In this document: in pieces, positions 27,534-42,598 of the stretch
How the letters are laid out: each line of letters starts with the position of its first letter
How positions within the stretch are numbered: the stretch's first letter is position 1
Source of the DNA: Rhizobiaceae bacterium
GTDB taxonomy: Bacteria > Pseudomonadota > Alphaproteobacteria > Rhizobiales > Rhizobiaceae
Reading direction: 5' to 3'
NCBI GenBank assembly: GCA_019635775.1
Contig: JAHBYU010000004.1
Coordinates: forward strand, 124,001-188,000
DNA: 64,000 nucleotides
Translations under genes and position numbers: made by a program
The notes under the pieces: model-generated
Databases searched by the model: none
What the model was told of the DNA's origin: nothing
What the model saw: only the letters and a program-made list of their open reading frames with translations

Positions 27534-27625
27534 CAGGGACGCTGACAGGGCGGAATTTTTCGCGGCGTCATTGCAATGTCGCCGGCTGCGCCTACTTCAC
27601 ATGAACCCGCAACGTGGAGGCCCTG

Positions 27626-28405
27626 ATGTTCGACCCCAAGAAACTGCTCGATGACCTGCTCGGTTCACAGGTCCCCGGTACGCAAGGCACCGTACGCGAC
27701 AAGGCCGGCCAGGCCGCGCAGCTTGCCAAGGACAATCCGCTTGCAACCGGTGCGCTCGTGGCGGTTCTGCTCGGCACGGGGGCGGGGCGCAAGGTGACCG
27801 GTTCGGCGCTGAAGATCGGCGGCCTGGCTGCCGTGGCCGGGCTCGCCTACAAGGCATACCAGAACTATCAGCAGGGCCAGCAGCCCGGCGCCACGCAGGA
27901 AGGCGCCCAGCAAGGCCAGCCCGAACTTCTTCCCCCGCCTTCGGACGACGCGTTCAACCCCGCGCAGGCGCCGCAGGGCGAAGAAGAGTTCAGCCTTTCG
28001 CTTGTTCGCGCGATGATCGCGGCCGCCAAGGCGGACGGCCATATCGACGACGAGGAGAAGCAGAAGATCGGCGACCGTCTGGCGCTTGCGGGCCTCGGCC
28101 CGGAGGCGGAAGCCTTCCTGCGTGACGAACTGGAAAAGCCGCTCGACCTCGACGAACTCGTATCGCTTGCACATACGGAAGCGCAGCGGGTCGAAATCTA
28201 CACCGCCTCGCGGCTGACCATCGATCCGAACACGCGGGCGGAGCGTGGCTATCTCGATCTCCTCGCCGGCAGGCTGCAATTGCCGGACGCACTGGTCGAT
28301 CACATCGAGGCTACTGTTTCGGCGTCGAAGGAGCCGGTTACCGTCGATGCGTCAGCCGGAACATCGGTGCCGCCGATCCCCCGGCCCAATCCCACGCGCT
28401 GGTGA
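27626..28405 (+). CDS. DUF533/TerB-like inner-membrane-associated protein (YebE type)
   Basis: 259-residue protein with an N-terminal Gly/Ala-rich hydrophobic region (residues about 35-80, GALVAVLLGTGAG and KIGGLAAVAGLAY), a Gln/Pro-rich linker, and a C-terminal TerB-like helical domain (about 125-225; RAMIAAAKADGHIDDEEKQK, an acidic motif that can bind metal). The molecular role of YebE-type proteins is not known. GGAGG five bases before the ATG fixes the start. A CtrA box lies 20 bp after its stop codon and belongs to the RNA downstream rather than to this gene. Confidence 0.85.
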   Translation: MFDPKKLLDDLLGSQVPGTQGTVRDKAGQAAQLAKDNPLATGALVAVLLGTGAGRKVTGSALKIGGLAAVAGLAYKAYQNYQQGQQPGATQEGAQQGQPELLPPPSDDAFNPAQAPQGEEEFSLSLVRAMIAAAKADGHIDDEEKQKIGDRLALAGLGPEAEAFLRDELEKPLDLDELVSLAHTEAQRVEIYTASRLTIDPNTRAERGYLDLLAGRLQLPDALVDHIEATVSASKEPVTVDASAGTSVPPIPRPNPTRW

Positions 28406-28424
28406 GCGGGAGCGGAGCTCGCTG

Positions 28425-28440
28425 TTAACTTTTCGTTAAC
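28425..28440 (+). promoter_or_regulatory. Full CtrA-binding box TTAA-N7-TTAAC
   Basis: TTAA (28425-28428), seven bases, TTAAC (28436-28440) is an exact match to the alphaproteobacterial CtrA consensus. It lies just downstream of a gene end and 20-30 bp before the start expected for the small RNA, the position of an activating site near -35. Confidence 0.75.
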
Positions 28441-28460
28441 CAGTCGAGCGCATGATTCTG

Positions 28461-28537
28461 GCCAGTCGGATCGGCTCCTCCTCCTCCCAAGCCCGGTCCG
28501 CAAATTGGGGGCGGTCGCCAATGACCGCCCTTTTTGT
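28461..28537 (+). ncRNA. Candidate CtrA-controlled small RNA with anti-Shine-Dalgarno loop
   Basis: About 75-80 nt, no start codon with ribosome site. Hairpin 1: CGGATCGG (28467-28474) pairs with CCGGTCCG (28493-28500) over 8 bp including one G-U pair, and its 18-nt loop is almost wholly CTCCTCCTCCTCCC, the complement of ribosome-binding sites. Hairpin 2 is an intrinsic terminator (28509-28535). A full CtrA box stands upstream. Loops with CCUCCUCCC are the known hallmark of the rhizobial alpha-r14/suhB-motif small RNAs, and CtrA-controlled RNAs have been described in Sinorhizobium. The exact family and 5' end are inferred. Confidence 0.72.
28509..28537 (+). terminator. Intrinsic terminator of the small RNA
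   Basis: Stem GGGCGGTC / GACCGCCC (28509-28516 and 28523-28530), 6-nt loop, then TTTTTGTC. It is a textbook Rho-independent terminator, 104 nt after the DUF533 gene and 77 nt before the next gene. Confidence 0.92.
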
Positions 28538-28611
28538 CGCCAGTTCCCTACAGCGCTTGCCTGATCATCCGCTATCTGCGATTGCGGTCTGCGGAACCGG
28601 AGGATCAATGC

Positions 28612-29391
28612 ATGTCTGACACAAGGGCCGCGAACGGCAAAACGGCGATCGTCACTGGGGCGGGAACGGGCGTGGGCAAGGCCACGGCGACGCTGCTGCT
28701 GGCCGAAGGCTGGAACACGGTTTTCGTGGGACGGCGCAAGAACCTTCTCGATGATGCCGTCACGGAGGCGGGCAGGAACGCGGCCAAGGGCGCGCGTGCG
28801 CTTGCGGTCGGCTGCGACGTGTCCAATCCAGCCGAAGTCGACCGCCTCTATGCCGAGGTCGACAAGGCGTTCGGCCGCGTGGATCTCGTCTTCAACAATG
28901 CCGGGGTGGGCTTCAAGACCTCGACCATCGACGAGGTGCCGGTTGACGTGTGGAACGATGTCGTGTCGGTCAACCTGACAGGCTCGTTCCTCGTCGCGCG
29001 CGGCGCGTTCGCGGCCATGCGCCGGCAGTCGCCGATGGGTGGGCGCATCATCAACAACGGGTCGATTTCCGCGCATGCGCCGCGTCCCGGTTCGGTCCCC
29101 TACACGGCCACGAAGCATGCCATCACCGGCCTGACGAAGACCCTTGCACTGGACGGCAGGCCGTTTGACATCGCCTGCGGCCAGATCGACATCGGCAACG
29201 CCCTGACCAACATGGCGGCGTCTATGACGACCGGCATGCCGCAGGCCAATGGCGAGATGGCCACCGAGCCGGTGATAGACGTGCAGCGTGTCGCCGAATC
29301 GGTGGTCTACATGGCCAGCCTGCCGCTCGACACGAACGTGCTGTTCATGACGGTGATGGCAACCAAGATGCCCTTCGTGGGACGGGGATAG
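28612..29391 (+). CDS. Short-chain dehydrogenase/reductase
   Basis: 259-residue classical SDR with the cofactor motif TGAGTGVGKA (about residues 15-24), NNAGVG, and the catalytic Ser (NNGSISAHAP), Tyr and Lys (YTATKH). Arginines after beta-2 (VGRRKN) suggest NADP preference. The substrate is unknown; the closing part (NMAASMTTGMPQANG) matches rhizobial SDRs annotated only as oxidoreductases. GGAGG nine bases upstream fixes this ATG. Transcription should start after the small-RNA terminator. Confidence 0.88.
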   Translation: MSDTRAANGKTAIVTGAGTGVGKATATLLLAEGWNTVFVGRRKNLLDDAVTEAGRNAAKGARALAVGCDVSNPAEVDRLYAEVDKAFGRVDLVFNNAGVGFKTSTIDEVPVDVWNDVVSVNLTGSFLVARGAFAAMRRQSPMGGRIINNGSISAHAPRPGSVPYTATKHAITGLTKTLALDGRPFDIACGQIDIGNALTNMAASMTTGMPQANGEMATEPVIDVQRVAESVVYMASLPLDTNVLFMTVMATKMPFVGRG

Positions 29392-42097: not shown

Positions 42098-42235
42098 CCT
42101 GGGCTCGGCCGTCGAAAGATGTCATCGGCCGCAAATTTTTTATTGATTGCGACAGAACGAATCTCTATATCCGCGCTTGCCCAAAGTCGCACGTGCCTGT
42201 GGGTGTCCGCCGGTCCCTCGAATGGCGAGGAAATC
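42098..42235 (+). other. Spacer after tetR, promoter area of the odc leader
   Basis: About 140 bp, locally AT-rich (AAATTTTTTATTGATTGCG near 42131-42150), likely to hold the end of the tetR message and the promoter of the leader RNA. No gene and no clear operator were found. Confidence 0.4.
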
Positions 42236-42598
42236 GGTAAGGTAACCGGAGCTAACCCCTCCGGTCGGTTTAGCGGCCAACCGCAAAACCGAGGACATCT
42301 TGAAGCAACGACGGTGCGGGCCTTTCTGGTTCTCTTCCGGTTGTCCAAAGACCGGGGTTACTGAAGAGGCACACCTTCATTGCCGGCAGTGCGGAACGGG
42401 ATCTCCCAATCCAAGCCAAGGCAGACAAAGCGGATCGTGGCCGGGCTGGCCATTATCCATCGCCGCGAGACGGCGTTCCACGGTTTCGGCGACTCCAAAG
42501 GCCGGCTCCGGGGATAGTTGTCCCGCCTTTGTTTGACCTCCATGACGCGTGGCCGAGCGCCCGCGTGCATGAGCATGCTTGCGCGCCCCGAAGGCGCA
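42236..42598 (+). ncRNA. Structured leader of ornithine decarboxylase, speF-motif candidate
   Basis: Some 360 nt before the decarboxylase start hold successive clean hairpins: ACCGGAG/CTCCGGT (42245-42265); CGGTTT-a-GCGG with CCGC-a-AAACCG (42266-42291); CCGGT/ACCGG (42337-42355); CGTGG/CCACG (42436-42482) enclosing CGCCG/CGGCG (42461-42475); and GCGCC/GGCGC (42583-42597) beside the ribosome site. A conserved RNA motif named speF precedes this gene in alphaproteobacteria, so this is its most likely identity. Boundaries, ligand and mechanism are inferred. Confidence 0.55.

Follow-up and report, generated by a model that had tools for sequence, protein, structure and literature searches.

Locus architecture

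Between genes for a DUF533 protein and a short-chain dehydrogenase (SDR), positions 28425–28535 of the window (the whole 64-kb stretch of DNA that was analysed) hold a perfect CtrA box, a hairpin with CUCCUCCUCCC and an intrinsic terminator, in this order and on the same strand as both neighbours (Table 1). The box reads TTAACTTTTCGTTAACC, as a sequence-only reading of this DNA had proposed under the motif TTAA-N7-TTAAC, and the terminator noted in the same reading is likewise present, with stem arms GGGCGGTC and GACCGCCC and five T after them. Its third element, a hairpin of 8 bp with an 18-nt loop, can be read (28467–28474 paired with 28493–28500, the loop at 28475–28492 holding four TCC units that end in CCC), but the alignment of the family prefers a longer stem and a 13-nt loop of the same hairpin. 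The further description of the locus as a gap with no open reading frame is literally untrue, because a 272-aa minus-strand frame (28300–29118) spans the element, a 64-aa frame ends inside the box at 28439, and the SDR gene has a possible TTG extension starting at 28534.

Table 1. Features of the small RNA locus and its neighbours (window coordinates)
Feature	Position	Strand	Details
Upstream neighbour, DUF533 protein (PF04391)	27614..28405	+	
CtrA box, TTAA-N7-TTAACC	28425..28441	+	overlaps the expected -35 region
Putative -10 element, CATGAT	28451..28456	+	role suggested; majority consensus of alignment A2
Predicted small RNA, ~70 nt	28463..28535	+	start placed from the -10 element, end from the terminator
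Hairpin 1	28468..28499	+	stem 28468-28476 with 28490-28499, bulged C at 28493; folding and covariation
Loop CCTCCTCCTCCCA, anti-Shine-Dalgarno	28477..28489	+	13 nt, predicted unpaired
Intrinsic terminator	28509..28535	+	stem 28509-28516 with 28523-28530, then TTTTT
Downstream neighbour, SDR (PF00106)	28612..29391	+	

Within the window, TTAA-N7-TTAA occurs this one time, with 0.04 occurrences expected and the motif present in 4 of 100 shuffled sequences. The segment 28460–28535 folds at -34.3 kcal/mol (z -2.71, with 2 of 200 shuffles equally good); folding energy is modest evidence by itself, since the fold that includes the leader (28442–28540) reaches a z of only -0.64, with 50 of 200 shuffles as good. 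The loop motif is not rare alone (TCCTCCTCCC with at most one mismatch occurs six times in the window, where 5.0 occurrences would be expected), and what counts is the combination of elements together with their conservation. No sigma-70 site came up in a general promoter scan, and a simple terminator scan of the window missed the terminator at this locus and listed another site at 28405–28423. In alignment A2, described below, the majority consensus of the relatives around the putative -10 element is GCGCATnnTT.

Relatives, spacing and covariation

At E 0.01, a DNA similarity search matched 15 of the 61 relatives; on inspection the element was recognised in L001, L010–L018 and L021, and L019, L020, L022 and L023 were set aside as DNA matches that are not the element. 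Genomes were also scanned with a pattern consisting of the loop and the terminator only, leaving the box unused, and at least 118 stretches were returned, 80 of which were taken as loci. We dropped L031, L038, L055, L058, L059, L061, L073, L093 and L098 (Novosphingobium) as chance matches, none of them with a box, and left out L043 (which ends 29 nt upstream of the loop) together with seven duplicates. The final set comprises 74 distinct loci, 11 of them added from the DNA searches and the rest among the pattern matches listed; L001, L011, L015, L017 and L021 were reached only by a DNA query containing the box, so that 69 loci were collected box-free. Genera represented among the matches listed are Mesorhizobium, Nitratireductor, Chelativorans, Aquamicrobium, Pseudaminobacter, Aquibium, Aminobacter and others, and at two Mesorhizobium loci (L025 and L079) the element is identical to that in genomes of the window's own genus.

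Among the matches listed, all 74 distinct loci have the box in the 70 nt before the loop, 58 of them in perfect form and the others with a single mismatch (74 of 83 loci if the nine chance matches are kept); within the box-free subset of 69, it is perfect at 54 and carries one mismatch at 15. As a control, 4154 windows of 70 nt were drawn at random from these loci; none contained a perfect box, and 0.17% held one with a single mismatch. Some of the boxes are weak, as at L077 (TTAACTTCTTCTTAG). Box and loop lie 51–57 nt apart, and the second landmark spacing is 11–18 nt; both shift by single bases between relatives, so no reading frame is kept through the element, which argues against a small protein. 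Two overlapping TTAA-N7-TTAA boxes with a common half site lie upstream of the RNA at L051 and L085 (both Chelativorans) and at L069 (Nitratireductor luteus).

The stem and the terminator covary. In alignment A1 (70 distinct core sequences) the proposed pairing is formed in 97.5% of cells, and seven pairs show double changes, amounting to 36 cells compared with 10.0 in shuffles (none of 500 reaches the observed value) and 1–14 in slid versions; pair 17–40 of the upper stem, for instance, is seen as GC, GU, AU, CG and UA, with 5 cells unpaired and 7 gapped. Five terminator pairs are invariant (the GGGCG/CGCCC core), as is CTCCTCCCAAGC in most rows, and these say nothing because the search pattern demanded them; with the loop and terminator core required in this way, their constancy in A1 is in part a product of the search. 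Similarly, CCTCCC is present in 58 of the 58 rows of A2, all of which came from searches or a model rewarding CCTCCC. Remoter members found with the model have other stem sequences that are still able to pair (CATGCC/GGCATG in L197 and L198, for example), and some relatives, such as L033 and L039, have no T run behind the terminator stem.

The comparison in relatives that the sequence-only reading had suggested as a check thus found box and loop kept and the stems covarying, which supports its idea of an orphan small RNA gene with a CtrA box and an anti-Shine-Dalgarno loop. On this comparative evidence the locus is a real, conserved small RNA gene, its parts retained in the same order and at near-constant spacing. 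That box, TCC repeat and terminator came together by chance might be argued from the abundance of TCC repeats in this GC-rich window, but conservation, covariation and the box statistics refute it.

Both neighbours are on the same strand and often conserved: among the matches listed, DUF533 lies directly upstream at 46 of the 68 loci with enough sequence, and SDR directly downstream at 47 of 61. The element could accordingly be read as a leader or attenuator of the SDR gene, or as the 3' end of the DUF533 message, and not as a trans-acting RNA. We consider this very improbable, since at least 13 loci with neither neighbour adjacent keep the box, the loop and the terminator stem, and the terminator stops before the SDR start.

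A covariance model of the element (R1) matched 165 of 394 genomes of the window's family at E 0.001; 107 of these genomes reach at least 42 bits and the remaining matches at most 39.0, the box having been examined in part of them. For this check 40 places were fetched, mostly from the low-score end. At 42 bits or more the box (at most one mismatch) is present in 20 of 21, the exception being L195 at 43.4 bits; below 42 bits it is present in 6 of 19 (L197, L198, L203, L204, L211 and L214). The other 13 low-scoring places have no box within 300 nt upstream, except for AT-rich L205 with two one-mismatch sites, and seven of the 13 (L199–L202, L205, L208 and L209) resemble alpha-r14, with at least two CCTCCC units. 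A second model that includes the box (R2) separates the two groups over 28 sources, one scoring at least 43.6 bits and the other at most 32.9, with L197, L198 and L203 in its training set, L204 near-identical to training rows, and L211 and L214 outside it.

Relation to known small RNAs

At gathering scores, Rfam models found only an ar45 small RNA and a speF leader in the whole window and nothing at the small RNA locus. No gathering score was reached by the RNA in the window or at 13 other family loci scanned, so it probably lacks annotation in most of these genomes. The ar45 small RNA (160 bits) and, 9 bases further on, the speF leader (97 bits) lie on the same strand at 42179–42483 (+).

The sequence-only reading had assigned the loop to alpha-r14 and suhB as though the two were one family. 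Rfam separates them, describing suhB as mmgR, and its models place the RNA in neither: the alpha-r14 model (RF02344) gives 28.3 bits against a cut-off of 58.8, and the locus is absent from the 19 matches of the suhB model (RF00519) up to E 10. The suhB/mmgR RNA is also an alphaproteobacterial small RNA and carries a CCUCCC-like stretch; the window's genome has its suhB copy (69.2 bits, gathering score 41) at a different place on the same contig.

With alpha-r14 (NfeR1) the RNA shares a CCUCCUCCC hairpin loop, an intrinsic terminator and presumed pairing with Shine-Dalgarno sequences, and the same motif is part of cuckoo-type RNAs according to the Rfam description of CcsR1. It could therefore be a member of one of these groups that lost hairpins, has a CtrA box by chance and serves the same general stress role, and this we regard as rather unlikely. 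The alpha-r14 model does align the loop and the terminator, and with the CcsR1 model one relative (L051) scores 28.9 bits; on the other side stand the score below the cut-off, the single anti-Shine-Dalgarno hairpin plus terminator where alpha-r14 has three CCUCCUCCC hairpins (PMC10746234), the retention of the box at every one of the loci listed, and its absence from the alpha-r14-like low scorers described above. Moreover, four true alpha-r14 copies above the cut-off coexist in the window's genome with no box within 250 nt upstream, the same being true of the sub-threshold copies L006 and L007, so that two kinds of anti-Shine-Dalgarno RNA, one boxed and one box-less, stand side by side in a single genome. 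Two of the four (L002 and L003, G000:C1:777490-777773) are arranged in tandem and two more are on other contigs. CcsR copies also differ in their setting, being transcribed together with a DUF1127 gene under an RpoH promoter (PMC10253847), whereas the window RNA adjoins DUF533 and SDR, and no DUF1127 gene is found among five nearby genes (DUF533, SDR, rhodanese, aldo/keto reductase and aminotransferase).

GspR of Sinorhizobium, which the sequence-only reading gave as a small RNA under CtrA control, belongs to the CtrA network in the reverse sense: it represses ctrA mRNA (PMC5928217; PMC7143759). No known promoter signature lies upstream of it, and the terms CCUCC and anti-Shine are absent from the main text of the first report (PMC5928217). 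A published table of M. huakuii small RNAs contains, in its accessible part, suhB entries and unknown ones (PMC5596092).

BjrC1505 (RF02356) is similar in another respect. Its Rfam consensus seems to include a CtrA-like box, reading UUuACggccuAUUaacc from position 8, one letter off TTAA-N7-TTAA, and two loci above its cut-off in two other families, L256 (box with one mismatch) and L257 (perfect), show the box at the 5' end together with a CCUCCC loop and a terminator. It differs by extra hairpins and other stems: the window RNA reaches 14 bits against a cut-off of 50, and the GAGUGG/CCACUC hairpin of the BjrC1505 consensus is absent there.

In the literature surveyed, the closest idea is that of Caulobacter CcnA. 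This noncoding RNA has a predicted CtrA site, is less abundant in a ctrA-ts strain and carries a C-rich loop (CCCC) that pairs with GGGG in the leaders of ctrA and gcrA (PMC8959179). Compared by description only, the two RNAs differ in that CcnA lies at the replication origin and has CCCC in its loop, not CUCCUCCUCCC (PMC8959179). The available text of that report gives no clear homologue in S. meliloti and homologues in other alphaproteobacterial families except Rickettsiales (PMC8959179). Taken together, the best reading is that the window RNA would be a new, CtrA-wired variant of the anti-Shine-Dalgarno class.

CtrA control, candidate targets and wider reach

In Caulobacter, full TTAA-N7-TTAA motifs are associated with activation by CtrA when their 5' base lies close to -35, and the CtrA-bound promoters regulated through the cell cycle include those of six noncoding RNAs (PMC4287350); for S. 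meliloti the consensus used is TAA-N7-TTAAC (PMC3616915). The 5' base of the box in the window falls at about -38 relative to the predicted start at 28463, so a conserved TTAA-N7-TTAA stands near -35 as in CtrA-activated promoters, given this start. Genes for both CtrA (83% identical to the Caulobacter query) and GcrA are present in the genome. The promoter is very probably activated by CtrA, judging by these sequence features. The opposite arrangement, in which CtrA represses the promoter and the RNA is produced in the absence of CtrA, appears improbable: a class of half-site CtrA motifs does act in repression in Caulobacter, but in that bacterium a full palindrome near -35 is the layout linked to activation (PMC4287350). 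Our literature search, with most subscription papers outside its scope, found no published link between this RNA and CtrA.

From the sequence and from precedent in Caulobacter and Sinorhizobium, we infer transcription, activation by CtrA and repression of targets, and consider a CtrA-driven, free-standing anti-Shine-Dalgarno small RNA gene the likely reading of the locus. Phosphorylated CtrA would bind the box over the -35 region and turn on a promoter with the -10 element CATGAT, giving an RNA of ~70 nt from about 28463 to 28535. Its single anti-Shine-Dalgarno hairpin would keep UCCUCCUCCC open for purine-rich ribosome-binding sites of the GGGAGGAGG type, and such pairing would keep a set of messages from being translated while CtrA is active. 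An anti-Shine-Dalgarno role has been described for the CCUCCUCCC motif of NfeR1 (PMC10746234) and of SmelA075/SmelA099 (PMC3927594), and the window RNA is probably a translational repressor through its loop. Because this loop is common to the alpha-r14 copies, it leaves the specific role of the RNA unexplained.

The sequence-only reading had envisaged broad repression with several targets inside the window, for which the support is thin: of 52 crude gene calls, 4 have GGAGG ahead of the start. Neither the extended complement of the loop, TTGGGAGGAGG, searched in four genomes of the genus, nor the start regions of ctrA and gcrA yielded a conserved target. The former pattern gives one site per genome outside the small RNA, in unrelated places, and was put down to chance. 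The start regions of ctrA and gcrA, the genes targeted by CcnA (PMC8959179), give no long pairing with the loop, so these two look weak as targets of the window RNA and are not supported; the ctrA leader has AAAAGGGGAATAGA before the ATG in all four genomes. The window's genome also has a second, divergent GcrA-domain gene (L277, G000:C3:89746-90162), for which a pairing of -25.4 kcal/mol is predicted ~100 nt upstream of the assumed start.

Rhizobial anti-Shine-Dalgarno RNAs such as NfeR1 are regulators of nitrogen metabolism and symbiosis. By joining such a loop to a CtrA site, the conserved gene described here offers a small, testable object for post-transcriptional action of CtrA. To look beyond the family, R2 was run over 397 genomes of the order and gave 21 matches at E 0.001. 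Ten of them, scoring at least 92 bits, are clear members from two genera of the window's family; three weaker matches fall in a third genus of the family and eight weak ones lie outside it (29–37 bits). The BjrC1505 loci L256 and L257 described above belong to the weak matches. At L249, in another family, a suhB/mmgR copy above the cut-off has a perfect TTAA-N7-TTAACC upstream, and in one genus of the window's family two alpha-r35-like RNAs (L251 and L252, 49.0 and 40.7 bits, cut-off 45) lie directly behind a perfect TTAA-N7-TTAACC. These weak loci are a lead only, since the model that picked them rewards the box. An order-wide pattern (box, 33–63 nt, CCTCCC, 22–50 nt, CTTTT) matched 12 of the 397 genomes, 8 of 21 in the window's family and 4 of 376 outside, and a control with GGGAGG matched 0 of 21 and 2 of 376; 4 against 2 of 376 is no clear enrichment outside the family, and the order-wide idea thus rests on single loci. 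We therefore put forward only tentatively, as a doubtful generalisation, that CtrA-driven anti-Shine-Dalgarno RNAs may be a recurring cell-cycle output across this alphaproteobacterial order, represented by the window RNA in the Mesorhizobium group, by BjrC1505 and by single mmgR/suhB and alpha-r35 cases. If so, they would be a functional counterpart of CcnA, through which CtrA would lower translation of a set of messages per cell-cycle phase.

Other weak R2 matches, such as L248, L250 and L258, were not convincing. L250 has an anti-Shine-Dalgarno hairpin, GGGTCCTTTCCTCCTCCCAAAGGACCC, and a terminator-like stem with no CtrA box, and may represent a separate invention of the loop.
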